Source: Vicinamibacterales bacterium
GTDB lineage: Bacteria > Acidobacteriota > Vicinamibacteria > Vicinamibacterales > JAMQPK01
DNA: 64,000 bases
Assembly (NCBI GenBank): GCA_023717525.1
Contig: JAMQPK010000099.1
Coordinates: forward strand, 17,844-81,843
Reading direction: 5' to 3'
A program made the translations under genes and the position numbers. This document shows, in pieces, positions 14,419 to 28,229 of this stretch (its first letter is position 1; each line of letters starts with the position of its first letter). Under the pieces are notes generated by a model that saw only the letters and a program-made list of their open reading frames with translations, searched no databases and was not told where the DNA came from.

Positions 14419-15807
14419 ATGAATTCCAAGCCAAAAACGGTCCTGATCGTCGATGACGACGAGGGGATGCGCGACACGCTGAACGCGATCCTGCGCCGCG
14501 ATTATCGCGTGCTGCGGGCCGCAAGCGGCGAAGCCGCGCTGGCGATTCTGAACCGCGAGGACGTCGATCTGATGCTGCTCGACGTGCGCCTTCCCGGCAT
14601 CGACGGCTTCGACGTGCTCCGCATCACGAAAGAGAACTACGGGCTCGTCGAGGTGATCATGATCTCGGCGATCACCGAGATTGAAACCGCCGTGAAGGCG
14701 ATGAAGTTCGGGGCCTACCACTACACCACAAAAGAGTTCGACTACGAAACGATTCGCTCGCTCGTCCACAACGCCAGCGAGCGCCAGGATCTGAACCGGC
14801 AGGTGATGACGCTCAGCGCGCAGGTCGCCGACCAGGGCGACCGCGAGTTCGTCGTCGGCCCAAGCAAGCTCACGCGCGATATCGTCGACCTCGTGCAGCG
14901 TGTCGCCAAGCTGTCCGCGACGGTCTTGATCCTCGGAGAGAGCGGGACGGGCAAGGAGCTGCTCGCTCGGCTCATCCATCGCGAGAGCGGGAATGCCGAT
15001 TCGCCGTTCATCGCCGTCAACCTTGCGGCCATTCCCCGCGAGCTCGTTGAAAGCACGCTGTTCGGCCACGAGCGCGGATCGTTCACCGGCGCCATGAAGC
15101 AGCAGCTCGGAAAGTTCGAGCTCGCGTCGGGCGGCACGTTGTTCCTGGACGAGATCGGCGACCTCCCGCTCGAGCTGCAGGCGAAGCTGCTGCGTGCAAT
15201 CCAGGAGGGCGAAATCGAGCGTGTCGGTGGTGCGAAGCCGATCAAGACCGACTTCCGGCTGATCGCCGCCACCAACGTCGACCTCGAAAAAGCTGTCAAG
15301 GACGGGCGGTTCCGGGAAGACCTCTACTACCGGATCAACGTCATCCCCATCAAGTTGCCGCCGCTCCGCGACCGCATGGAAGATCTGCCCGAATTGGCGA
15401 TGTTCTTCCTCAATCGCTACAAGGTGCGATTCCGGAAGGCTATCCAGGGCATCTCCGATTCAACACTCAAGGTCCTTTCGAGCTACTGGTGGCCTGGCAA
15501 TATCCGCGAGCTCGAGAACCTGATTGAGCGCCTCGTCGCGGTAAGCGACAAGGAATGGATTACCGACGAGGATTTGCCCTTCGAGTTCCACTTCGCTCAA
15601 CTCGATCGAGTGCCCATCCACGGCGAGAGCCTCTTTCAGGAGGCAACCAACACGTTCGAGCGGAACTTCATTCTTCGCGCGCTCGAGAAGTCCGGGTGGA
15701 ACGTCACCGCGACGGCGCGCTACCTGGGCATCCCGCTCAGCACGCTGAAGTTCAAGATGGACCGCCTCGACATTCGCGAGCTCGCAAAGAAACTCCGCGG
15801 CGCCTGA
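14419..15807 (+). CDS. Sigma-54-dependent response regulator (NtrC/DctD family)
   Basis: A 462-residue bacterial enhancer-binding protein. Receiver domain at residues 1-120 with the DDD acidic pocket, phospho-acceptor D55 (LLDVRLPG) and the conserved Lys (TTKEFD). AAA+ domain at about 145-385 with Walker A GESGTGKE, the sigma-54 contact loop GSFTGA and Walker B GGTLFLDEIGD. The C-terminal Fis-type helix-turn-helix is ATARYLGIPLSTLKFKM. It should oligomerise when phosphorylated and remodel RNA polymerase-sigma-54. The start is uncertain: in-frame ATGs lie at 14371, 14401 and 14419, and I prefer 14419 because it gives a standard receiver N-terminus. Downstream lie a GG-N10-GC promoter and, five genes on, a histidine kinase that is its likely partner. 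Confidence 0.93.
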   Translation: MNSKPKTVLIVDDDEGMRDTLNAILRRDYRVLRAASGEAALAILNREDVDLMLLDVRLPGIDGFDVLRITKENYGLVEVIMISAITEIETAVKAMKFGAYHYTTKEFDYETIRSLVHNASERQDLNRQVMTLSAQVADQGDREFVVGPSKLTRDIVDLVQRVAKLSATVLILGESGTGKELLARLIHRESGNADSPFIAVNLAAIPRELVESTLFGHERGSFTGAMKQQLGKFELASGGTLFLDEIGDLPLELQAKLLRAIQEGEIERVGGAKPIKTDFRLIAATNVDLEKAVKDGRFREDLYYRINVIPIKLPPLRDRMEDLPELAMFFLNRYKVRFRKAIQGISDSTLKVLSSYWWPGNIRELENLIERLVAVSDKEWITDEDLPFEFHFAQLDRVPIHGESLFQEATNTFERNFILRALEKSGWNVTATARYLGIPLSTLKFKMDRLDIRELAKKLRGA

Positions 15808-16029
15808 TTCGCGGCCAATCCATTGGCCGATCGGCTAACCTCCTGCCGATCTACCTAACCACCTAATTTGTAATTAGTTACAGAGATCGCGTAGGACGGA
15901 CTCCGATTTAGGTCGGCTAATGCGTTAGCCGAAGGCGTTGGAAATCCGGCACGAAATTCAAGACGAACTAGACCGGTAAAGCCTTACTTCACAATAGTTT
16001 AATTCCTGCGCGGTTTCCGCTCCGATCGA
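15808..16029 (+). promoter_or_regulatory. Upstream control region with TCGGCTAA half-sites (probable activator sites)
   Basis: The non-coding stretch contains four copies of one 8-mer. TCGGCTAA is at 15831-15838 and 15913-15920. Its reverse complement TTAGCCGA is at 15925-15932, forming a perfect 8-bp palindrome with a TGCG centre (15913-15932). A one-mismatch copy TTGGCCGA is at 15823-15830. A separate palindrome GGCCAAT-CC-ATTGGCC lies at 15813-15828. The 15913-15932 palindrome is centred about 130 bases before the expected start of the sigma-54 promoter, the usual distance for an enhancer-binding protein. The assignment to the adjacent activator is inference. Confidence 0.6.
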
Positions 16030-16045
16030 TGGAATACCCATTGCT
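16030..16045 (+). promoter_or_regulatory. Sigma-54 promoter (-24/-12) of the radical SAM operon
   Basis: TGGAATACCCATTGCT matches TGG-N9-TTGCW with the diagnostic GG-N10-GC spacing (GG at 16031-16032, GC at 16043-16044). The predicted transcript would start near 16055, about 90-100 bases before the maturase start. A sigma-54 activator gene lies immediately upstream. The CAC after the first GG is replaced by AAT, so this is a good but not perfect site. Confidence 0.7.
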
Positions 16046-16142
16046 CTAGCGTCATACGGAAATTTGTATTCGGGTCTGAACGCGGCCCTGCGGTTCTTTC
16101 CAGAGGCGTTCAATCCACTCTCTACTCCGGGTTTTCGGAGCT

Positions 16143-17546
16143 ATGCAGCAATCGATGTTCAACCTCCGTGTCCCCCTCCCCGAGTCGGGAGAAGTGTTCC
16201 TGATGAACACCTTGACGGACGCGCAGTTGATCGTGCCCCCTGAGATCGCTGGATTGCTCGATCGTCTGACAGACGATCCGCCTTCGATTGAGAGCGAGCG
16301 GCTGAACGAGGACGAGCGTGAAGCGCTCATCACGCTGACCGAGCATGGCTTCATCGTCCCGAATCGCGCGGCCGACACCGAGGCGCTGAACAAGTTCTTC
16401 ACGGACTACCGCGAAGACACCGAGCAGATGCGCGTCACGGTCCTGACGACCCTGCAGTGCAATTTTGCGTGCGACTACTGCTTCCAGGGCGACCACGGCG
16501 ACTACAACAAGCACGCCGACAAGATGTCGCTCGAGGACAGTGCGCGTCTCTCGGCCTGGATCGAAACTCGACTCGATGAGCTGAAACCGAAGCGCCTGAC
16601 GCTGACGTTCTTCGGTGGCGAGCCGCTGCTGAACATGCCGGTCGTGTACGACCAGGCAGAGCGAGCGCTTGCGGCATGCGAGAAGCGTGGCGTGACGCTG
16701 GCGCTTGGCATCATCACCAACGGACTCCTCCTGACCGAAGAAATGGTCGATCGGCTCGTGCCCTACGGGCTGGGCTACGTCAAGGTGACGCTCGACGGCG
16801 ACCGCGACACGCACAACCAGATGCGCCCGCTGCGCGGCGGCCAGGGCACGTTTGACCGGATCGTGGAGAACGTCCGGAAGATCGCCGGCAAGGTCCGCGT
16901 GGCGATTGGCGGGAATTTCGACGCCGACTCGGTGGCGAGCTACCCCGCGTTGCTTGATTTCCTCAAGGAACAGGACTTCGCCGACAAGCTGGCCAAGGTG
17001 GCGTTCAAGCCTGTCGTGCGCGAGCGTCAGGCTCCCAAAAACATCATCCCGCTGACGATCGTCACCGACAAACCGCTGAATGGGACGTGCATGACGGCGG
17101 CCGGTTCTGGCGGATCGAGCATCTGCGACACCTGTCAGTTCGTGGACGAGCAACTCTCGCACTTGCGCGAGGAAACGAAGAAGCGCGGCTTCAAGACGGT
17201 GGACGGCGTCCACATGGGACCGTGCGAAATTCACAAACGGCACGCCTACACGATCGGGCCCAACGGTTCGACGTATGCGTGCCCGGGGTTCACGGGCGAT
17301 CCGATGCTGTCGACGGGCCACATCGACGGCCGCACGGAAAGCTGGCGGATGTCGGCGGCCGAGCGATTCGAACATCTCTCGGCGTGGCACAACTGCGGGG
17401 ATTGCGCGTTCATGCCGGTGTGCGCGGGAGGCTGCTCGGTTGCCTCGCACACCGAGCTTGGTGACATGAATATGCCGACGTGTCACAAGCCGGCTTTTGA
17501 ATCGGCACTCATTTCGCTGGCGCATGACGCGGCCAGCGCATCCTAG
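16143..17546 (+). CDS. Radical SAM/SPASM peptide maturase
   Basis: A 467-residue radical SAM enzyme. Residues 1-95 form an N-terminal region of the type seen in peptide maturases. The 4Fe-4S site is C106-x3-C110-x2-C113 (CNFACDYC), followed by FFGGEPLLN. A C-terminal SPASM domain (about 315-460) carries many cysteines for auxiliary clusters: CMTAAG, ICDTC, GPCEIHKRH, YACPGF, NCGDCAFMPVCAGGC and a final TCHK. It should reductively cleave SAM and modify a peptide substrate, most likely the 32-residue product encoded 11 bases downstream. ATG 16143 has GGAG only 2 bases upstream and ATG 16155 has it 14 bases upstream, so the start is uncertain by four codons. It is not an obvious PqqE, because the partner lacks the PqqA ExxxY motif. 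Confidence 0.93.
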   Translation: MQQSMFNLRVPLPESGEVFLMNTLTDAQLIVPPEIAGLLDRLTDDPPSIESERLNEDEREALITLTEHGFIVPNRAADTEALNKFFTDYREDTEQMRVTVLTTLQCNFACDYCFQGDHGDYNKHADKMSLEDSARLSAWIETRLDELKPKRLTLTFFGGEPLLNMPVVYDQAERALAACEKRGVTLALGIITNGLLLTEEMVDRLVPYGLGYVKVTLDGDRDTHNQMRPLRGGQGTFDRIVENVRKIAGKVRVAIGGNFDADSVASYPALLDFLKEQDFADKLAKVAFKPVVRERQAPKNIIPLTIVTDKPLNGTCMTAAGSGGSSICDTCQFVDEQLSHLREETKKRGFKTVDGVHMGPCEIHKRHAYTIGPNGSTYACPGFTGDPMLSTGHIDGRTESWRMSAAERFEHLSAWHNCGDCAFMPVCAGGCSVASHTELGDMNMPTCHKPAFESALISLAHDAASAS

Positions 17547-17557
17547 GAGTCGGAATC

Positions 17558-17656
17558 ATGGCAAAGATCAAGGTCATCAAGTCAGGTAAGGAAACCGCGA
17601 AGCCACAGAACTACTGCCCGTGGGTTGTAGAGTCCGACGACGCTAAACAGAAGTAG
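17558..17656 (+). CDS. Putative RiPP precursor peptide, 32 residues
   Basis: The frame starts at ATG 17558, 8 bases after a strong AGGAG (17545-17549) and 11 bases after the maturase stop, and ends at TAG 17654-17656. The product has a Lys-rich N-terminal half (MAKIKVIKSGKETAK, leader-like), then PQNYCPWVVE with one Cys (C20) flanked by Tyr19, Pro21 and Trp22, then an acidic-to-basic tail SDDAKQK. Size, position and composition fit a substrate of the adjacent radical SAM/SPASM enzyme. Residues around Tyr19-Cys20-Pro21-Trp22 are the obvious candidates for cross-linking, but the chemistry cannot be read from sequence. I do not recognise the family. It is not PqqA, mycofactocin or a six-Cys (SCIFF) peptide. 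Confidence 0.75.
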   Translation: MAKIKVIKSGKETAKPQNYCPWVVESDDAKQK

Positions 17657-17788
17657 GGCCTAAACATCTGGCGGCCTTGCGCCGAAAAGCGTATCGACCG
17701 CCAGGAGTATGATCCAGGTTTCGGCGGTGGCATGGAGCGTCGCTCCCCCGCCGCCGAACCGTTGCTCCCCCGGTCGAGGGAGCCCCCG
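17657..17788 (+). other. Spacer between the peptide gene and the binding-protein gene
   Basis: This 132-base spacer holds no convincing gene. An ATG at 17709 opens a 39-codon frame, but its AGGAG is only 1 base away and the product is Pro/Ser-rich without a recognisable feature. GAGGGAG at 17776-17782 serves the downstream lipoprotein. No intrinsic terminator with a T-tract was seen, so transcription probably continues. Confidence 0.4.
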
Positions 17789-19306
17789 ATGCTTGCCGTC
17801 CGGTTACTCGGACTCTTCATCTGCCTGAGCCTGCCGGCATGCTCTCATCCGCCGGCTGCCTCGGCTCGTTCTTCCAGCGACTCCGTCACCCTCACCATCG
17901 GGTTACCGTTCATGAGTGGACGAGACTCACTGAACGGTATTCAGCAGGCAGTTCGGCTCCTCAGCTTTGAGGGACTCGCCCAGATCGAGCCGGAGGGGCG
18001 ACCGCAACCACGACTCGCCCAAGGATGGACCGTATCGCCGGACGGACTGTCGTGGACGTTCCAATTGCGCGACAACGCATTCTTTCATGACGGCAGCCCT
18101 GTGGATTCGACCGCGGTGAAGGCATCGCTGGAGCGGACACTTTCAAGTCCGGCCGTGGCTATGTCGCCAGGGTTGGTGGACATCATCGGCATCGACACCC
18201 CAAAGCCTTATCAGTTGGTCATCAAGCTCAGGAGACGGTCGACGTTTCTGCTCGATGATCTCGTCGTCTCCATCTCCAAGCCGTCACCGGATGGTCCGCC
18301 CGTCGGCACAGGGCCATACGTGACAGACTCGACGACGCCGACTGAAGTCACGATGAAGGCTTTCCCCTCTTACTATCGCGGGGTTCCGAGTGCGGATCGA
18401 ATCGTTTGGAAGTCGTACCCGACTGCTCGCGCATCGTGGGCCTCAATGATGAGAGGCGAGATCGATGTACTGTTCGAGGTGCCTCCAGATGCTTTCGAGT
18501 TCATGAGCAGTGAGGACTCGGTCGAGAAATTCTCATTTCTCAGGAACTACGTTCATGGAGTCGTGTTCAACATGCACCGCCCTATCTTTCGCGACTCGAG
18601 GGTCAGGCGCGCGCTGAACCACGCGGTCAATCGAGTTGCTCTAATCAATCAGGCCTTTGATGGCCACGGTGTTCCCGCAAACACTCCAACGTGGCCCGAT
18701 CACTGGGCATCCGACCGGAATCTGCCGAACTACACCTACGATCCCGCCAGAGCCACTGCTTTGATGGAGGAAGCAGGACTGAAGATCGATGATGACCGCC
18801 CCCCGGCGCGGATGCGTTTCAAATGCATCTTTCCGACCAATCCGGTGTGGGAGCGAATGGCGCTTATGGTCCAGCGCGACTTCTCACAAATAGGCGTCGA
18901 CGTTCAATTCGAGGAACTTCCGCTCGCCGAGTTCAACCGCCGTCGTGTGAACGGAGATTTTGACGCTGTGCTCTCTGAGTTGATCGCTGGAAACTCGGCT
19001 GGCCGCCCTTACGTGTTCTGGCACTCAAGCAGCAAGCAGAATTCGGTAGGCTATCAAAACCCCCAGGTAGACAACGCCTTCGATCGCCTCAGGCAAGCGA
19101 CAGATGATGCCCAAACGAGGGCGGCTTTCCGCGACCTCCAATTGCAGATGCTCGACGATCCTCCTGGCGTTTTTCTTGCGTTCGGTCAACTGACACGCGC
19201 GGTCAGTCGACGCTTCACGGTCACCGTAGTCCCTGGGAACGACATCATCCGCTCGATCAATGAATGGCACCTGGCAGTTCAGGGCGCAGAACGGGATTCG
19301 AATTGA
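17789..19306 (+). CDS. Extracytoplasmic peptide/solute-binding lipoprotein (SBP family 5)
   Basis: A 505-residue family 5 solute-binding protein (OppA/DppA type). It begins MLAVRLLGLFICLSLPACS, a lipoprotein signal peptide with lipobox LPAC. The hallmark FEGLAQIEPEGRPQPRLAQGWTVSPDGLSWTFQLRDNAFFHDG and the FRDSRVRRALNHAVNR segment follow. ATG 17789 is preferred (GAGGGAG 6 bases upstream) over an upstream start that would bury the signal peptide. No ABC permease or ATPase genes are near. Instead it sits between a RiPP precursor and a sensor kinase whose TTG start overlaps its stop (TTGA). The likely role is extracellular ligand capture for signalling, perhaps of the modified peptide. That is inference. 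Confidence 0.88.
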   Translation: MLAVRLLGLFICLSLPACSHPPAASARSSSDSVTLTIGLPFMSGRDSLNGIQQAVRLLSFEGLAQIEPEGRPQPRLAQGWTVSPDGLSWTFQLRDNAFFHDGSPVDSTAVKASLERTLSSPAVAMSPGLVDIIGIDTPKPYQLVIKLRRRSTFLLDDLVVSISKPSPDGPPVGTGPYVTDSTTPTEVTMKAFPSYYRGVPSADRIVWKSYPTARASWASMMRGEIDVLFEVPPDAFEFMSSEDSVEKFSFLRNYVHGVVFNMHRPIFRDSRVRRALNHAVNRVALINQAFDGHGVPANTPTWPDHWASDRNLPNYTYDPARATALMEEAGLKIDDDRPPARMRFKCIFPTNPVWERMALMVQRDFSQIGVDVQFEELPLAEFNRRRVNGDFDAVLSELIAGNSAGRPYVFWHSSSKQNSVGYQNPQVDNAFDRLRQATDDAQTRAAFRDLQLQMLDDPPGVFLAFGQLTRAVSRRFTVTVVPGNDIIRSINEWHLAVQGAERDSN

Positions 19307-21057
19307 AGCGCATCGCCTCGCGCTTCGCCTTGTTGCTCGCAGCAGCGGGAATCCTGCCGCTGGTCTTGTACGGTGCCGTGTCGATCTTCTCCCTGCGCGA
19401 TGCGACACGGCGCTCGGTCATTTCCGGCAACGAAAATGTCGCCAGGCGCGTAGCGGAACAGATCGGCCTCTACGTCCAGACCAACGTCGACATTCTGAAG
19501 TCCGTCGGCGGGAATCTTGAAGAGACGAACCTCGAGCGGTGGCAGCAGGATCGAATTCTGAAAACCGCAGTCCTCGACTTTCCAGAATTCCGCGAAATCA
19601 CCTTGTACGACGCGGCGGGCGGCCAACTCGCTTCCAGCCGGGTCGGGAAATCGGGCGTTCGGTTCCCTCAGTCGGGAACGCCCTTCGGTTCGAACATCAT
19701 CCTGTCGCCCATCGATATCGACAGCGACTTCCTGCCCCGGGCGGTCGTCGGTATCAAGCTGTCCCATGTTGGTCGAAGCTCCGGCTCTCTAGTCGGCGAG
19801 ATCAGCCTCGAAGAAATGTGGCGGATGGTCGATCGCATCAAGGTAGGCGAGCAGGGGTACGCGCTCGTCGTCGCATCCGGGGGAGCGCTGATCGCCCATG
19901 GCAATCCCGACGAGAAGCCGCGAGTGGCGCGGGGCGACAACCTGAAGGATCAGCCGCTCGTTCAGCTTGTGCATGCAGAGCAGAACAAAGGGCCGGTGTC
20001 GCTCGAATTTGCAAGCGATCGCGGAATTCAGATGCTGGGCGTCGCCGCGCCGCTCGAGCCGCTCGGCTGGACGGTGATGGTCGAACAGCCGCGCAGCGAG
20101 GCCTACGCGGTCGCCGATCGCCTGACGCGACAGCTCGTGATGATCATCGGTCTGGCACTGCTCGTCACCGTCACCGTCGGCTACTTCTTCGGCCGATCGT
20201 TCATCCGGCCGATTTTCGAGCTCATGCGCGGAACCGCGGCCGTCGGCGGAGGCCGCCTGACCGAGCGCGTCAAGATCACGTCGAAGGACGAGTTCAAACA
20301 GCTGGGCGACGCGTTCAACAGCATGGCCGACAAGCTCGTCGAGCTGACAGAGGACGTTCGAAAGAAAGAACGACAAGCCATGTTCGGCCGCATGGCCGCC
20401 GGCCTCGTCCACGATCTCTCACATCCGGTGCAGAACATCGGCAACAGCTGCAAGCTGATCGTCCGCGTGTTCGACGATCCGGAGTATCGCCAGACGTTCA
20501 CCCGCACGATCGATCGCGAGATCGACACACTGAAACGCGTGCTCGACGACCTGCGCAATGTCGCACGGCCGGCGCCAGTCGAACGCTTCCCCCTCGACAT
20601 GAACCGGGCCGTGGCCGACATCGTCGAGTCGATGCGCGGCTACGCCGACGAATCGGGCATCGGCCTCGAGTCGAAATTCTCGAGCGAGCCGGTGATTGTC
20701 GAAGGCGATGCGTTTGCGCTCGGCCGCGTCTACCGCAACCTCATTACGAACGCGATTCAGGCCACACAGGCCGGCGGACGCGTGACCGTGGCGACCGCAC
20801 GCGCCGGCGCCATGGTGGAAGTGAGCGTCTCGGACACCGGCTCCGGCATTCCGCAGGAACGCCTGGCTGCCATCTTTGACGACTTCGTCACGACAAAGAA
20901 ACGCGGCCTGGGTCTTGGCCTTGCGATCACCAAACGCATTGTCGAACAACTCGACGGCACGATCGCCGTCTCGAGCGAAATGGGCAAGGGCACGACGTTC
21001 ACGATGCGATTCCCCGTCGCGGCACGGCCGATGGCCGTCGTGGCCGCGGCAGGCTAG
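19303..21057 (+). CDS. Membrane sensor histidine kinase with extracytoplasmic CACHE-like domain
   Basis: A 584-residue kinase. It has a transmembrane helix near residues 8-30, an extracytoplasmic CACHE-type sensor (about 30-275), a second helix (about 283-302), HAMP (FIRPIFELMRGTAAVGGGRLTERV), then the catalytic core: H-box AAGLVHDLSHPVQNIG with H370, N-box LITNAIQA, G1 DTGSGIP and G2 GLGLGLAI. The H-box form is of the NtrB/DctB-like type that usually works with sigma-54 activators. The TTG start at 19303 overlaps the SBP stop (TTGA), so the two are translationally coupled. An ATG at 19264 in the same frame would add 13 residues without a signal character. The probable partner is the regulator at 14419-15807. 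Confidence 0.9.
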   Translation: MKRIASRFALLLAAAGILPLVLYGAVSIFSLRDATRRSVISGNENVARRVAEQIGLYVQTNVDILKSVGGNLEETNLERWQQDRILKTAVLDFPEFREITLYDAAGGQLASSRVGKSGVRFPQSGTPFGSNIILSPIDIDSDFLPRAVVGIKLSHVGRSSGSLVGEISLEEMWRMVDRIKVGEQGYALVVASGGALIAHGNPDEKPRVARGDNLKDQPLVQLVHAEQNKGPVSLEFASDRGIQMLGVAAPLEPLGWTVMVEQPRSEAYAVADRLTRQLVMIIGLALLVTVTVGYFFGRSFIRPIFELMRGTAAVGGGRLTERVKITSKDEFKQLGDAFNSMADKLVELTEDVRKKERQAMFGRMAAGLVHDLSHPVQNIGNSCKLIVRVFDDPEYRQTFTRTIDREIDTLKRVLDDLRNVARPAPVERFPLDMNRAVADIVESMRGYADESGIGLESKFSSEPVIVEGDAFALGRVYRNLITNAIQATQAGGRVTVATARAGAMVEVSVSDTGSGIPQERLAAIFDDFVTTKKRGLGLGLAITKRIVEQLDGTIAVSSEMGKGTTFTMRFPVAARPMAVVAAAG

Positions 21058-21066
21058 AGAGGCACC

Positions 21067-21312
21067 ATGCTCTTCAAGACACTCGTCAAGACGGAAGATC
21101 TCGAGATGGAGGGGCGGGACTACCCGGTCTGCTACTTCGAAGGCACCACAGCCCGAGGCGCCAAGCGCTACAGCGCCGAGCTGGCGCTCGGACCAGGCGA
21201 TCGAATCATTCTTGACGCGGCAACGCTGAGCGATCTGGAACTGCGAGTCGCGCGACTGATGCCCGCGACGCTCCAGAGCCGGATGCTGGCGGCGAAGTCA
21301 CCAGCGGCGTAG
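21067..21312 (+). CDS. Small protein of unknown function
   Basis: An 81-residue protein starting MLFKTLVKTEDLEMEG. It has no signal peptide, membrane helix or Cys pair (single Cys at about residue 22). The middle (AKRYSAELALGPGDRIILDAATLSDLELRVARLMPATLQSR) looks like a small beta-barrel with a terminal helix. The ATG has GAGAGG about 5 bases upstream and lies 9 bases after the histidine kinase stop, so it is the last gene of the RiPP/sensor operon before a terminator-like hairpin. I do not recognise a family and infer no function beyond its operon membership. Confidence 0.7.
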   Translation: MLFKTLVKTEDLEMEGRDYPVCYFEGTTARGAKRYSAELALGPGDRIILDAATLSDLELRVARLMPATLQSRMLAAKSPAA

Positions 21313-22533: not shown

Positions 22534-24957
22534 TTGCAGAACCTGCGACCGCCGTTTGCGGCGGGCGATGCAGTTATTGCACGTGGCGAGCGCTGGGTCG
22601 TCGAAGAGACGACGGCATTCGAGGACTGCGTGCTGCTGCAGCTTGCGGCACCGGCTAGTGGTGCCGGCCACGGCAGGCGGGCGTGCCTTCTGCATCCATT
22701 CGACCGGCCCGTCGCCGCGACGCCCGAACGCAGGACTCGCGTCGTCACACGCACACGCTGGATGAATAATCTGCAGTTTCATCTCGCTGACCTTCGCGGG
22801 CATGGCCAGCTGCGATCGGCCCGCTCGGCCGCAATCGACATTCTTCCGTTTCAGCTCGAGCCGGCGCTCGCAGTCGTCCGCGGACGTGCGGCGCGGGTGC
22901 TGTTGGCCGACGAGGTCGGACTGGGAAAGACCATTCAGGCCGGGCTCGTGCTCGCCGAACTACGGCAGCGAGGGTGGTGCGAGCACGCGCTCGTTCTCAG
23001 CCCGGCGGGTTTGTGCCGGCAGTGGGCCGAGGAACTCGGCCGGCGGTTCGGCATCGCCACATCAGTACTCGATACAAACTCGCTCCGGGGTCTCTCGGCT
23101 GCACTGCCATTCGGCGTCAACCCCTGGTCTGTGGAACGGGTTGTCATCGCCTCAACCGACTTCATCAAGCAACCCGAGGTTCTACATGCCGCCGCATCGA
23201 TTTTGTGGGACATCCTGATCGTCGACGAAGCCCATCAGGCCGCAACGGCGCCTCAACGAGCCGCAGCAGTGAATCTGGTTGCGCGACGATCACGACATCT
23301 GCTGCTCATCACCGCCACCCCGCACGCCGGCGACGAAGCCGCGTATCGATCGCTTTGCGCAATAGGTCGGATCGGCGGCGACGATCCGCTGCTGCTCTTC
23401 CGCCGCACGAGGAACACGGTCGGTTTCAAAGGAACGCGCAAAGTTCGCCTGCTGGCGATTCGCCCCGGACCGGAGGAGCGCGAGATGCACCATCTGCTCG
23501 CCCGCTATGTGCAACGCCTCTGGCAAATAGGCGACAGGGAAGACGCAAGCAGCGTACGACTCGTTGCCATGGTCTTGAGCAAGCGAGCACTGTCAAGCGC
23601 ATCCTCGCTGGCTTCGTCAATCGAACGGCGTCTGGGCTGCCTGACCGATCGCGTTTCGGAGCCCGTTCAGACCGGTCTGCCGATCGGTGCATCCGAGGAC
23701 GACGACCGAGCGGACGCCGAGCCGGGCTTCGGTATTCCTGCCTTTGAGCGCATTGATGAGGAAAGGGCATCACTGCGGGCCATCCTCGCCGCCGCTTACC
23801 GCGTTCGCGAGGAAACGAAAGTGCAGGCGCTCGTCCGGCTGCTCCGCCGTGCAGCTGAGCCTGCTGTCGTTTTCACCGAGTATCGCGACACGCTCGCGTT
23901 GCTGGCAAGCTCTCTGGCGCCGTTCCGACGGCTGGTGTTGCTGCACGGAGGCTTGTCCGCAGACGAACGGCGGATTGGCGTCCAGGCCTTCAACAGTGGA
24001 TCGGCCGATCTGCTACTGGCCACCGATGCCGGCTCTGAGGGTTTGAACCTGCAGCCGCGCTGCCGGCTCGTCGTCAACCTCGAGTTGCCCTGGAATCCGA
24101 TTCGTCTCGAGCAACGCATTGGCAGGGTCGATCGGCTCGGCCAGTCGAGGACGGTTCACGCGGTCAATCTGTTCGCTGAAGGTACGGCCGAGGCCACCGT
24201 GCTCGCGAGCCTCCTCAAGCGGCTCGACAAGATACGGGCAAGCGAGATCGACATTGCCGGGTGCGTCATTGGCGGCCGCGAGCCGAGCTTTTCTCCGTCC
24301 ATGACTGCGGATACGGCCGCCACGATCATCGACCTCCAGAAAGAGTCGGACCGAGAGGCAGAACGATTGCGTGACCTCAAACGCCGGCCGGCCTCGCCTC
24401 CGTGGCATGGCGACTACACTCGACTTCCTGTCTGCGTCCTCAGATCTCGAGACCGCCGGTTCTCCAAATCACCAGAAGCCCTTTGGTTCTATCGAACGCG
24501 AATCGTCAACGGATGCGGCCGGCTCGTTGAGGATGTCCTCGTGCCGGTGCGATCTCCCCTTTCCGCGGCCGATGTGGCCGGCTGCTGCTGGGCCGACGTC
24601 AGGCGACGGAGCATTCGGGCCATCGCCGAGCGACTTCTCGAGCAGTATCAAGGAGCCGCATCGGCGGCGGCCCGACTGCATCTCGAACGGCGCGCCTCCG
24701 TGATTGCTGGCGAAAGCCGCGAGTGGATCGTTCGGGCGCGAACGCGCGAACAGCAACTCTCGCAGACCCTTCAGACCACCAGCCCACTCTTTCAGGCCGG
24801 CTTGTTTGACGGACGAACGCTCAGGCAGCGGGAAGAGGGCCGCGCAGAACACCATCGGCTGATGGCCGAGACGGCGTCTCGCGCTGGGCATCTCGGACTG
24901 GAGGGCCTGACGACCGCCCAGGAACCCGAGCTGGCGCTCCTTCTTCTGCGATGCTGA
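22534..24957 (+). CDS. SNF2-family DNA helicase/translocase (DISARM DrmD-like)
   Basis: An 807-residue superfamily 2 ATPase of the SNF2/RapA type. Motif I is LLADEVGLGKTIQAG (about residue 130), motif II DEAH (IVDEAHQA), motif III ITATPHAGDEA. The second RecA lobe has VVFTEYRDTLALL, motif V TDAGSEGLNLQ and motif VI QRIGRVDRLGQ. The N-terminal 120 residues begin with a small beta-rich segment seen in DISARM-type helicases. The C-terminal 250 residues are helical and unassigned. No nuclease motif was found. TTG 22534 is supported by GAGG 6 bases upstream. Its stop overlaps the methylase start by 7 bases, so the two are co-translated and probably act as one DNA-modifying or antiphage unit. Confidence 0.9.
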   Translation: MQNLRPPFAAGDAVIARGERWVVEETTAFEDCVLLQLAAPASGAGHGRRACLLHPFDRPVAATPERRTRVVTRTRWMNNLQFHLADLRGHGQLRSARSAAIDILPFQLEPALAVVRGRAARVLLADEVGLGKTIQAGLVLAELRQRGWCEHALVLSPAGLCRQWAEELGRRFGIATSVLDTNSLRGLSAALPFGVNPWSVERVVIASTDFIKQPEVLHAAASILWDILIVDEAHQAATAPQRAAAVNLVARRSRHLLLITATPHAGDEAAYRSLCAIGRIGGDDPLLLFRRTRNTVGFKGTRKVRLLAIRPGPEEREMHHLLARYVQRLWQIGDREDASSVRLVAMVLSKRALSSASSLASSIERRLGCLTDRVSEPVQTGLPIGASEDDDRADAEPGFGIPAFERIDEERASLRAILAAAYRVREETKVQALVRLLRRAAEPAVVFTEYRDTLALLASSLAPFRRLVLLHGGLSADERRIGVQAFNSGSADLLLATDAGSEGLNLQPRCRLVVNLELPWNPIRLEQRIGRVDRLGQSRTVHAVNLFAEGTAEATVLASLLKRLDKIRASEIDIAGCVIGGREPSFSPSMTADTAATIIDLQKESDREAERLRDLKRRPASPPWHGDYTRLPVCVLRSRDRRFSKSPEALWFYRTRIVNGCGRLVEDVLVPVRSPLSAADVAGCCWADVRRRSIRAIAERLLEQYQGAASAAARLHLERRASVIAGESREWIVRARTREQQLSQTLQTTSPLFQAGLFDGRTLRQREEGRAEHHRLMAETASRAGHLGLEGLTTAQEPELALLLLRC

Positions 24958-27900
24958 ACGGCCTTAGCGGTTCTCTGCTCTCTCACTACTTCGCCGAGTG
25001 CCGGCTTGCCGGCGAGTTTTCGGGTGCGCTGGGCGAAGAGACTGTCGCACCCGCCTTCCATCGATTCGGTCGCTGGTGGCAGCAGGCGTCGCAATTAGGG
25101 CCGGCGTCGAGTCTTCGGGCGATCACAGACCAGGCTGCGCTGCCACTCGTCGAAGCACTTGGCTTCCGCGTAGCGAGCGGACGCGTCCTCATTCATCGGA
25201 ATGCCCGCGTTCCTTTGCTCGTAGGCGTGTGGACCGACTCGCTCGATGCGCTCTGGAGAAACGCGGTGCGCGCAGGGCTCGCAGCATCGACGCCGTGGTG
25301 TCTGTGCTGCAACGGGCGCGAGCTCAGGCTGGTTGACGCCGAACGCACATACTCGCGCGCGTATCTTCAATTCGATCTGGAACGGCTCGCTGGCGACCTG
25401 CACGCGTTTTCAGTGTTCTGGGGTGTCATGCGTGCGGATGCGTTTGACGCGCGAGGGAACGACACTCCGCTGATCACGCGCATCGTTCGGCAATCGGCAC
25501 GGCACGGCACGGCCGTTGGCCGATCGCTGCGGTCGGGTGTCCTCGATGCTGTGGCTGCGCTGCTGACGGGCCTGCTCGGCCCACGCGGCGGGAACAGACG
25601 GTTGAAGGGCGGCGAGCTCGACGCAGGACTCGACGAGTCGCTCACCCTCGTGTACCGGATGTTGTTTCTGATGTTCGCGGAGGCTCGAGGACTGGTACCG
25701 AATTGGCATCCAATCTATCGCGACCACTACACGATCGAGGCGCTTCGCGACGCCGCAGATCGCCCGGGCCCCGCAAGCGGCCTCTGGCCAGCGCTACAGG
25801 CGATTTCGCGTTTGGCGCATCGCGGATGCCGGGCAGGAACGCTGTGGGTTCCGGCCTTCAACGGTCGCCTGTTTTCGCCGGCCCGTTCACCCATGGCCGA
25901 ATCTTCAGTCTTGCCCGATGATGTTGTGCGGAGCGCCCTCGTTTCGCTATCAAGAACGCCAGCGAGCCAGGGGCGGATCGACTACCGCGACCTCGGCGTT
26001 GAGCAGCTCGGCGCCGTCTACGAAAGCGTGCTGGAGTACCGTCCAGCCTTCACAGAACCCGGAAAAACCGGAAACCGGGTTCTGCTACGGCGGGGCGGCG
26101 ATCAGCGCAAGACGACCGGATCGTTTTACACGCCGCAATCGATCACCGACTACCTGGTTCGCCGGACGCTTCACCCGCTTGTGGACAGCGCGACATCGGC
26201 GGAGATTCTGCAGCTTCGTGTCGTCGATCCTTCGATGGGAAGCGCCGCGTTTCTCGTTGCCGCTTGTCGGTATCTCGCTCGAGCGTACGAACGTGCCTTG
26301 CTGCGCGAGGGCGCATTGCACGAAGGTGAGCTCACAGACGGCGATCGCGCCGGGTTCAGGCGAGCCATCGCCCAGGGCTGCCTGTTCGGCGTCGACCTGA
26401 ATCCCACGGCCGTACAGCTGGCGCGTCTGTCGCTCTGGCTGGCCACTCTGGCAGCTGGCAAGCCATTAAGCTTCCTCGATCATCATCTGGTGTGTGGAGA
26501 TAGCCTCCTTGGCGCATCGCCCGTCGATCTTGCCCGTCAGGCGCCTCCCCGCGCCGGCCGTAAGGCCTCATCGAGAAATATCGAGACGCCGCTGTTCCTG
26601 GAGACCGACTTCGAGGGATCTGTCGCCGCAGCCGTGACGGAGCGCCGATGGATTGCGGATACGCGAGACGATACCGTCGCCGTCGTCTGGGAGAAGGAGA
26701 GACGCCTCGAGCGGATCCACGGTGTGGACCGTTGGAAAACGATAGCGGATCTCTGGTGTGCTTGCTGGATGTGGCCGCGCGACACGAAGTCCCCGGGTGG
26801 TGCCGTTTTTTCGTCGCTGTGCGAGCAGCTGCAGTCCGGGCGGGCTGTCCTGCCAACGCACGTTACGGAGCCATTTCTGGAGACATCGCGCTCGATAGCC
26901 GAGAGCAGGCGATTTCTACACTGGCCGATCGAGTTTCCCGAGATCTTTTTCGACGGCGCTGGCCGGCCGCTCGAGAATCCCGGGTTCGACGCCGTGCTCG
27001 GGAACCCTCCGTGGAACATGCTGCGTGGGGACAGCCCCGAGAAAACCTTTATCCGGGGCTCCGGCGTCTACCGGCACCAGAGCGGTGGCCACCTCAACCG
27101 GTACCAGTTGTTTGTCGAGCGTGCGCTCGCGCTGATGAAGCAGGGCGGACGCATGGGTCTGGTGCTGCCGTCAGGTTTTGCGACCGATCACACCTCGTCT
27201 GGGCTCAGACGGCGCGTGATCGATCACTGCGATATCGACAGCCTCACCGGCTTTGATAACCGGCGCGCGATTTTTCCGATTCACCGAAGCGTCCGCTTCA
27301 TCTTGTTCACCGCGACAGCCGGCCGGCCTACGGCCTCCATCAAGTGTCGGTTCGGAATCGACGATCCGGCCGTCCTGGACACCATCCCGGATCAAGGAGA
27401 TCGCGCGGCCGACCCGATGTACACGATTTCTCTGACGCCCGATCTCATCGGCCGTCTCACCGGCGAGCAACGAGCGATCCCAGAGTTGCGGGCCCCGCGC
27501 GACCTCTCGATCGTGGAACGCATCGTCCATCGATTCCCCAGACTTTCGAGCGCCGACGGCTGGAACGTGCGATTCGGGCGCGAGCTGAACGCCACCGACG
27601 ACAAGGCACATTTTTCGTCGGCCAAGCATCATGGAATGCCCGTGCTCGAAGGAAAACACATTGAATGCTTCGCCGCGAGAGTCGATCGCAGCACCCACAC
27701 CATCTCCGAACGGCAGGCCGCCCGCCTGATCGACCCGGCGCGATCGTTCGGGCGCGCGCGGCTCGCCTATCGGGATGTGGCGAGCTCGACGAACAGAATG
27801 TCCCTTATCGCGGCGATTCTTCCTGCGGGCGTCGTGACGACTCATACGCTGTTCTGCCTGAAGACATTTCTCGGAGCACGCGAGCAGGAGTACCTATGCG

Positions 27901-28229
27901 GGATGCTGAATAGTTTCGTGGCGAACTACCTCGTCCGACAGGTCATGACGACACATCTTGGATCGACGACGGTCGAAAACCTTCGCGTGCCGATGGTCTC
28001 GCAGACGTCCGCGGAGTTTCAGAGGATCTCGTCGCTGGCAGGCGCGCTGGGACGACGGTACTCGCCGGAGGATGCGGCGCGGCTTCAAGCAGCCGCCGCG
28101 CAGGCGTATCAACTAACGGAAGAAGAGTTCGGGCACGTGCTGTCGTCGTTTCCGCTCGTACCCGAATCGGAGCGAACGGCGGCGCTGGAAGCCTTCAGCC
28201 GCTGGCCGGAAACCGCCGGGTCTGCTTGA
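24951..28229 (+). CDS. Large N6-adenine DNA methyltransferase (Eco57I/DrmMI-like)
   Basis: A 1092-residue protein. The N-terminal ~370 residues resemble the nuclease-like region of type IIG enzymes (EALGFRV... CCNGRELRLV), but I could not find a PD-(D/E)xK triad, so it may be cleavage-inactive. GSFYTPQSITDYLVRRTL introduces the methylase core with SAM motif I DPSMGSAAFL (about residue 425) and catalytic motif IV NPPW (about 685). The C-terminal part (about 870-1060: GMPVLEGKHIECF, RARLAYRDVAS, LGSTTVENLRVPMV) is a TaqI-like target-recognition domain. It should methylate adenine in a specific duplex site. It overlaps the helicase stop and is convergent with a small gene, overlapping it by 35 bases. 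Confidence 0.92.
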   Translation: MLNGLSGSLLSHYFAECRLAGEFSGALGEETVAPAFHRFGRWWQQASQLGPASSLRAITDQAALPLVEALGFRVASGRVLIHRNARVPLLVGVWTDSLDALWRNAVRAGLAASTPWCLCCNGRELRLVDAERTYSRAYLQFDLERLAGDLHAFSVFWGVMRADAFDARGNDTPLITRIVRQSARHGTAVGRSLRSGVLDAVAALLTGLLGPRGGNRRLKGGELDAGLDESLTLVYRMLFLMFAEARGLVPNWHPIYRDHYTIEALRDAADRPGPASGLWPALQAISRLAHRGCRAGTLWVPAFNGRLFSPARSPMAESSVLPDDVVRSALVSLSRTPASQGRIDYRDLGVEQLGAVYESVLEYRPAFTEPGKTGNRVLLRRGGDQRKTTGSFYTPQSITDYLVRRTLHPLVDSATSAEILQLRVVDPSMGSAAFLVAACRYLARAYERALLREGALHEGELTDGDRAGFRRAIAQGCLFGVDLNPTAVQLARLSLWLATLAAGKPLSFLDHHLVCGDSLLGASPVDLARQAPPRAGRKASSRNIETPLFLETDFEGSVAAAVTERRWIADTRDDTVAVVWEKERRLERIHGVDRWKTIADLWCACWMWPRDTKSPGGAVFSSLCEQLQSGRAVLPTHVTEPFLETSRSIAESRRFLHWPIEFPEIFFDGAGRPLENPGFDAVLGNPPWNMLRGDSPEKTFIRGSGVYRHQSGGHLNRYQLFVERALALMKQGGRMGLVLPSGFATDHTSSGLRRRVIDHCDIDSLTGFDNRRAIFPIHRSVRFILFTATAGRPTASIKCRFGIDDPAVLDTIPDQGDRAADPMYTISLTPDLIGRLTGEQRAIPELRAPRDLSIVERIVHRFPRLSSADGWNVRFGRELNATDDKAHFSSAKHHGMPVLEGKHIECFAARVDRSTHTISERQAARLIDPARSFGRARLAYRDVASSTNRMSLIAAILPAGVVTTHTLFCLKTFLGAREQEYLCGMLNSFVANYLVRQVMTTHLGSTTVENLRVPMVSQTSAEFQRISSLAGALGRRYSPEDAARLQAAAAQAYQLTEEEFGHVLSSFPLVPESERTAALEAFSRWPETAGSA

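Follow-up and report, generated by a model that had tools for sequence, protein, structure and literature searches.

A conserved radical SAM peptide cassette with its own sensor genes in Vicinamibacterales, and a candidate self-sensing circuit

Gene content and conservation of the cassette

We analyzed a 64,000-nucleotide stretch of contig JAMQPK010000099.1 from a Vicinamibacterales bacterium (hereafter the window), which holds a locus of the type that makes ribosomally synthesized and post-translationally modified peptides (RiPPs). The source genome is a 3.78-Mb draft, and its closest named relatives are Luteitalea (Vicinamibacterales) and other Acidobacteria bins. The locus encodes an NtrC-type activator, a radical S-adenosylmethionine (SAM)/SPASM maturase, a short peptide, a solute-binding lipoprotein, a sensor histidine kinase, and a small 81-residue protein (Table 1). 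As a first-pass annotation of this DNA had described, all six frames lie on the plus strand of the window. The 33-codon frame comprises 32 residues and a stop, with an AGGAG at 17545 to 17549, 8 nucleotides upstream of its ATG, and the TTG start of the kinase overlaps the lipoprotein stop at 19303. The tight spacing given in the same description does not extend to the activator and the maturase, which are separated by a 335-nucleotide gap holding the promoter motif.

Table 1. Features of the cassette region, in window coordinates
Feature	Position	Strand	Evidence
NtrC-type response regulator, likely cassette activator	14419..15807	+	Pfam (receiver, sigma-54 ATPase, Fis-type helix-turn-helix)
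Upstream dyad 1 GGCCAATCCATTGGCC, likely activator site	15813..15828	.	Dyad pattern search
Upstream dyad 2 GGCTAATGCGTTAGCC, likely activator site	15915..15930	.	Dyad pattern search
Sigma-54 type -24/-12 promoter motif TGGAATACCCATTGCT	16030..16045	+	Motif score; rpoN in genome
Radical SAM/SPASM peptide maturase, 467 amino acids	16143..17546	+	Family models; fold closest to CteB
Precursor peptide, 32 residues, MAKIKVIKSGKETAKPQNYCPWVVESDDAKQK	17558..17656	+	Intact in 43/44 loci
Family 5 solute-binding lipoprotein, no neighboring permease	17789..19306	+	Pfam PF00496; predicted local distance difference test (pLDDT) 91.5; NikZ/AppA-like fold
Sensor histidine kinase (Cache-type sensor, HAMP, HisKA, HATPase), TTG start	19303..21057	+	Pfam
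81-amino-acid protein, optional companion	21067..21312	+	Present in 16/40 loci

Conservation of these genes was assessed in an order-wide sample of 80 genomes, our own included. A maturase orthologue was found in 34 genomes and a kinase orthologue in 35, with 33 in common. These mismatches are assembly breaks, because the affected genes sit at contig ends: the kinase of the two kinase-only genomes (G038 and G011) lies at a contig end, and the maturase of the one maturase-only genome (G071) is cut by one. In all 31 genomes whose contig runs past the maturase, the peptide, lipoprotein, and kinase genes come directly after it in the same order; a contig end cuts the kinase itself in four of them. 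For the three remaining maturase genomes (G039, G046, and G071), the contig ends at the maturase. Among the genomes with the cassette, two (G003 and G015) consist of a single contig. The predicted co-occurrence of the maturase with the peptide, binding protein, and kinase thus holds wherever the contig permits the check. A maturase without the peptide or sensor genes was not found within the order, save for one locus (L077) in which the peptide frame is interrupted by two stops.

The activator is more widespread. It occurs in 46 of the 80 genomes, 13 of which have no maturase match at that level, and so it is not exclusive to the cassette as had been supposed. An HU-type gene follows the kinase, at a gap of 69 to 1267 nucleotides, in all 27 loci whose contig continues, and 11 of the 13 activator-only genomes have it directly after the activator (40 to 195 nucleotides). 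Exceptions are G042, where the HU-type gene is 6 kb away, and G044, where the contig ends inside the activator. Since the HU-type gene flanks either the kinase or the bare activator, the maturase-to-kinase block is either present or missing as one piece, at one place. In a wider draw of 396 genomes from the phylum, the maturase profile at an E value of ≤1e-60 matched 18 genomes, our own among them, all within this order. As a set of genes, this RiPP-type cassette is established; it is conserved, includes dedicated sensor genes, and probably forms a circuit driven by sigma-54. A search of papers available without subscription turned up none that brings these parts together.

Beyond the order, a Nitrospirota locus (L085) has the same gene order, with 34% identity in the maturase, 29% in the lipoprotein, and 37% in the kinase. 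Its 23-residue peptide, MKIIKKGEKKVKSTPVHCTFLIG, lies directly after the maturase and ahead of the lipoprotein, and a sigma-54-like site is present (p 0.04). Among the best 120 relatives of the L085 maturase, those with a name were labeled Nitrospirae/Nitrospiria, Nitrospinae/Nitrospinota, Syntrophobacterales, Deltaproteobacteria, or bacterium. A viral collection searched with the Nitrospirota-type maturase yielded distant relatives only (best E 5e-21, 26%).

Precursor peptide and maturase

For the peptide count, we used 44 distinct loci in which a single contig holds both maturase and lipoprotein. They were drawn from the maturase surroundings in the 34 genomes and from loci of named genomes, 19 of them from Acidobacteria and one from Nitrospirota. 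Nine loci without both genes on one contig and seven duplicate records were left out. Two non-peptide frames (in L037 and L046) were taken out by hand, and a Thr peptide of L037, missed by the peptide-listing rule, was found by inspection. An intact peptide frame lies between maturase and lipoprotein in 43 of the 44 loci, L077 being the exception. Nucleotide differences number 117, 96, and 182 at the first, second, and third codon positions, from 17 close pairs that share loci and are therefore non-independent. Because 43 of 44 loci keep the frame and its differences fall mostly at the third position, the frame does not occur by chance, and the peptide gene is genuine. With a conserved short leader-plus-core precursor beside a modifying enzyme in those 43 loci, the locus appears to be of the radical SAM RiPP type, and modification of the peptide is predicted.

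The leader is basic, mostly M-K-I-x-[VI]-[IV]-K-K, and the core follows the pattern C-P-[WF]-x-[IV]-[DE]. In 52 Cys-type peptides, the core Cys is followed by Pro at +1 (43 peptides), Trp (36) or Phe (10) at +2, Val or Ile at +4 (41), and Asp or Glu at +5 (46). The Tyr-Cys-Pro-Trp segment that had been expected to be conserved is therefore not kept as a segment, as Tyr, Pro, and Trp all vary; what stands of that expectation is the Cys, constant among the Cys-type peptides. Most loci have one peptide; some have tandem copies, with L033 reaching four. Ser-type peptides (SPWLVDVP and similar) number three, in L033 and L035, and L037 has one of Thr type; all of them accompany Cys-type peptides, and none was seen alone. 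Cys is therefore not required for everything that the locus encodes, and these companions may belong to a two-peptide system or act as substrates that bind without being cross-linked. No peptide family model matched the four peptides that were scanned, and a hairpin between the peptide and lipoprotein genes was no stronger than in shuffled sequence (z -0.44).

The maturase has a Pfam Radical_SAM match, and SPASM scored 14.6 bits, under its cut-off of 21.5. Across 21 maturase sequences, the invariant Cys residues include C106, C110, and C113, which form a CxxxCxxC motif, and C361, C380, C418, C421, C427, C431, and C447, which we read as the seven SPASM Cys residues, placing the enzyme among the radical SAM/SPASM maturases on that reading. 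C316, C328, and C331 are invariant as well. The maturase profile reaches at least 3240 of 7998 scored candidate proteins at an E value of ≤1e-40, a breadth that does not imply orthology. Seven tandem radical SAM/SPASM matches with about 24 to 28% identity to the maturase were seen on a Methanosaeta contig (L087:4021-13298).

By model score, no existing family name fits the maturase. The closest curated model, geopeptide maturase TIGR04280, gave 250 bits (247.5 in a second scan) and missed its cut-off of 400 bits by 150 bits; the SCIFF maturase model TIGR03974 gave 102 bits against a cut-off of 425. Filing as geopeptide, CefB, FlmE/OhkG, or SCIFF was rejected, since all scored under their curated cut-offs. 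TIGR04280 is also the best model for four of five scanned Nitrospirota/delta-type relatives, all five of which score 257 to 308 bits, but none of the six scanned maturases reaches 400 bits. A literature search found no paper on the TIGR04280 geopeptide family, and we know of no sensor set described with a geopeptide.

The nearest solved sequence is CteB (E 4e-28), and the alignment to the CteB/SCIFF thioether-forming SPASM maturases extends over nearly the full length. CteB structures (PDB 5wgg and 5why) also took ranks 1 to 3 in a fold comparison, followed by SuiB, anSME, SkfB, and ChlB, a ranking that is only indicative because the maturase model has a pLDDT of 75.5. SCIFF peptides are Cys-rich, whereas the window-type peptides mostly hold a single Cys. 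By analogy, a Cys-centered cross-link is the most likely product of the maturase. The sole pointer to possible sactipeptide or ranthipeptide chemistry, a thioether from Cys to a backbone or side-chain carbon, is the likeness to CteB. Three-residue cyclophane chemistry was considered and dropped; the cores CITVVD, CVQMVD, CPLMID, and CPLLID lack an aromatic residue anywhere from +1 to +5.

Promoter, activator, and candidate receptor

We scored the sigma-54 motif in the 330 nucleotides upstream of the maturase in 45 distinct intergenic regions and compared it with dinucleotide shuffles. The mean best score was 12.84, compared to 10.82 for the shuffles (standard deviation of the mean, 0.12; highest shuffle, 11.16), and 30 of the 45 regions reached p ≤ 0.05. 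The opposite strand gave a mean of 11.1. Taken alone, the window site has a p of 0.04, and sigma-54 (rpoN) is encoded once in the genome.

Upstream of the maturase, we identified a dyad pattern, GGCYAA-N4-TTRGCC, with two perfect copies in the window. Dyads of this kind are used by NtrC-type activators. Across 44 relative loci (687,425 nucleotides), all 12 perfect dyads fall within the 17,368 nucleotides between activator and maturase, as do 31 of the 36 dyads with at most one mismatch. The 13 cassette-less activator loci contain no perfect dyad and one with a single mismatch. In our own genome, two of three perfect dyads lie between activator and maturase. The sole perfect dyad outside the cassette is at G000:C137:48958-48973 (L192:5959-5974), and reading four places with dyads beyond the cassette (on C137, C27, C49, and C21) in search of a regulon gave no clear target.

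The activator matches Response_reg, Sigma54_activat, and HTH_8 in Pfam. A receiver, an ATPase with a GAFTGA-type loop, a helix-turn-helix, a -24/-12 motif, and upstream sites are all present, as in an NtrC-type activator with a sigma-54 target. All 44 cassette-bearing loci keep the phospho-acceptor Asp, as do 11 of the 13 that lack the cassette. We infer that the activator binds the upstream dyads, and its control of the cassette, as first proposed from the gene order, is suggested by the sigma-54 promoter motif together with these sites. In the cassette-less genomes G042 and G056 (L161 and L159), the phospho-acceptor Asp is replaced by Thr or Gly, as if the activator had decayed once the kinase was lost. 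At L070:7081-8193, fragments resembling the C-terminal part of the activator follow an intact activator gene and are perhaps a decayed duplicate.

The lipoprotein matches SBP_bac_5 and has a lipobox, LPAC, by eye; its open frame extends back to 17732. For the kinase, HAMP, HATPase_c, and Cache_3-Cache_2 scored above the Pfam cut-offs, with dCache_1 (38.7 of 45) and HisKA (25.9 of 26.9) just under. The first-pass annotation called the lipoprotein an orphan with no ATP-binding cassette (ABC) permease. This stands locally: with two permeases (from C202) and four ATPases of the same genome as queries (E ≤ 1e-5), neither the window nor the 76 fetched loci contained a relative, and BPD_transp_1 had no match on the window's contig. 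A permease query from C164 was not counted, since its frame runs across both permease sites and is probably no gene. The statement does not stand for the whole genome, which has 10 BPD_transp_1 matches elsewhere. The genome also holds 5 SBP_bac_5 matches, and some matches of the two kinds are adjacent at C164 and C202. The query result rules out a linked permease but has no bearing on one encoded elsewhere. The permease and ATPase genes of an ABC importer are absent beside the binding protein; an orphan binder, a kinase, and a regulator encoded together are the arrangement of a binding-protein three-component system.

We compared pairwise distances from 36 complete loci, excluding L085. The lipoprotein is the most divergent, with a median pairwise identity of 0.35, followed by the kinase (0.52), the maturase (0.60), and the activator (0.68). 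Lipoprotein and kinase distances correlate with an r of 0.87, the best of the six gene pairs, and this correlation is the single basis on which the lipoprotein may be proposed to contact the kinase sensor domain. We then calculated partial correlations of peptide-core distance with each protein distance while controlling for the other three. The partial r was 0.22 for the lipoprotein (p 0.001), 0.15 for the kinase (p 0.017), 0.09 for the maturase (p 0.12), and -0.24 for the activator. The lipoprotein signal was robust to three distinct core windows, to ranks, and to removal of the PMNKK-type peptides (32 loci), and permutation inside 4, 6, or 8 clades gave p values of 0.005, 0.021, and 0.013. 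Leader and spacer were linked with the activator only and not with the lipoprotein. Though modest, the effect points to the lipoprotein as a protein that meets the peptide core, and the covariation thereby supports the earlier proposal of the binding protein as a candidate receptor of the peptide.

The fold of the lipoprotein model matches NikZ, AppA with a nonapeptide, AgaA, AapF, and, lower, a methanobactin binder. AppA is also the closest solved sequence and is reported as solved with a nonapeptide. The family 5 binders 5icq (reported for methanobactin) and 7kz9 (AapF, reported for HEHEAA) share the fold and have ligands of the kind proposed here; they differ in having only 20 to 22% identity to the window lipoprotein.

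A candidate circuit, its alternatives, and its neighbors

The best explanation of this gene set, to which we give about even chances, is a self-sensed RiPP, in which the sensor reads the mature peptide and the activator induces the cassette. The peptide leader would dock on the N-terminal domain of the maturase, which would put a Cys-centered cross-link into the core, as CteB does. The mature core would exit the cell via an unlinked route, and the lipoprotein would capture it and pass it on to the kinase, at the Cache domain. Phosphorylation of the activator by the kinase would follow, and the activator would drive maturase, peptide, lipoprotein, and kinase together. The resulting positive feedback loop would report the peptide concentration outside the cell. 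A broader form of the idea is more tentative, at somewhat under even chances: that in Gram-negative bacteria a RiPP may serve as its own inducer through a dedicated lipoprotein and Cache kinase with sigma-54 enhancer feedback, core and receptor varying jointly.

Several observations weigh against the self-sensed RiPP or parts of it. The cassette has no exporter or protease gene, and no signal sequence was seen by eye in the peptide. The activator is present without the cassette in the 13 genomes noted above, and the Nitrospirota locus has no activator match in its 15 kb, which are partly masked. A perfect dyad occurs in just 13 of the 45 intergenic regions (25 with at most one mismatch), and genome-wide, dyads with at most one mismatch number 16 per strand, fewer than the 31 of a reversed control. 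The partial correlation between core and lipoprotein is small. Kinase p values range from 0.002 to 0.5 across settings, falling between 0.002 and 0.017 in some of them, and the maturase reached p 0.004 with ranks and 0.042 to 0.05 in three other settings. The four distance matrices are collinear, as judged from the negative partial correlation of the activator. Nickel binders are as near to the lipoprotein fold as peptide binders are, and the Ser or Thr in place of Cys in four companion peptides speaks against a strictly Cys-based modification.

The lipoprotein and kinase might instead respond to a ligand from outside, be it peptide, metal complex, or some other solute, with the RiPP as the product of the response, for example, a metal binder or antagonist, and not as the ligand. 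Such a sensor needs neither an exporter nor a signal sequence, the lipoprotein fold is equally like nickel- or opine-binding proteins and peptide binders, and a nutrient-sensing orphan binder with two-component partners has been reported (CuaDSR; PMC10384115). We consider this rather unlikely, as the core covaries with the lipoprotein beyond the other genes, and the conserved four-gene block has no additional nutrient or metal gene.

Peptides can also be matured into cofactors, as in pyrroloquinoline quinone and mycofactocin. The product here might be a small cofactor kept in the cell, with the sensor genes adjusting its supply; the short peptide, the single copy at most loci, and the lack of export genes in the block would agree with this. 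However, the maturase-to-kinase block, the part examined, holds no gene for a cofactor-using enzyme, and up to four near-identical peptides with Ser forms (L033 and L035) would be unusual for a cofactor precursor, which makes the idea improbable. Least probable of all, in our view, is that the cassette serves peptide import, the lipoprotein delivering to an oligopeptide permease encoded elsewhere and the kinase only reporting permease load. The BPD_transp_1 and SBP_bac_5 matches of the genome, some of them adjacent at C164 and C202, leave room for such a partner, but no relative of the two permeases and four ATPases used as queries is linked to the lipoprotein in the window or the 76 loci even though the kinase and peptide accompany it.

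Autoinduction by peptides has been described mostly in Gram-positive bacteria. Acidobacteriota are abundant in soil, and to our knowledge few signals are known from them. If the self-sensed circuit holds true, it would be a new kind of bacterial peptide signal, encoded in many Acidobacteria genomes, and a class of peptide quorum sensing that spans a major order of Acidobacteriota and reaches into at least one further phylum. A single operon would then unite signal, maturase, receptor, kinase, and promoter logic. The cassette also offers a receptor-linked route to the product of this SPASM maturase family.

Two known systems resemble parts of this arrangement. In CuaDSR, where CuaD senses cellobiose, the binding protein is encoded beside its kinase and regulator, as reported (PMC10384115), whereas the window operon additionally encodes a candidate ligand and its maturase. 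The streptococcal Rgg/SHP-controlled radical SAM RiPPs likewise link radical SAM peptide clusters to quorum sensing, but they are reported to use Rgg and separate SHP peptides (PMC13361665) instead of a membrane kinase, a lipoprotein, and a sigma-54 activator. No second pheromone was seen at the window locus, and none of the six window proteins has an Rgg-type domain.

The remaining features of the region lie around the cassette. The 81-residue frame, which had been listed as a member of the gene set, is not a core member, being found in only 16 of 40 loci with a kinase and sufficient downstream sequence; it has no Pfam or NCBIfam match. A search of the window with Rfam gave no match at the gathering score. 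To the left of the locus is a lipoamide-dehydrogenase-type gene, and to the right are the HU-type gene and a QueF gene. Downstream of QueF, at window positions 22534 to 28229, are an SNF2-type helicase (DrmD-like matches) and a 1092-residue protein resembling DrmMI/type IIG methyltransferases. Frames resembling this SNF2-type helicase were seen by eye at the same spot in the cassette-less loci L156, L159, and L165.

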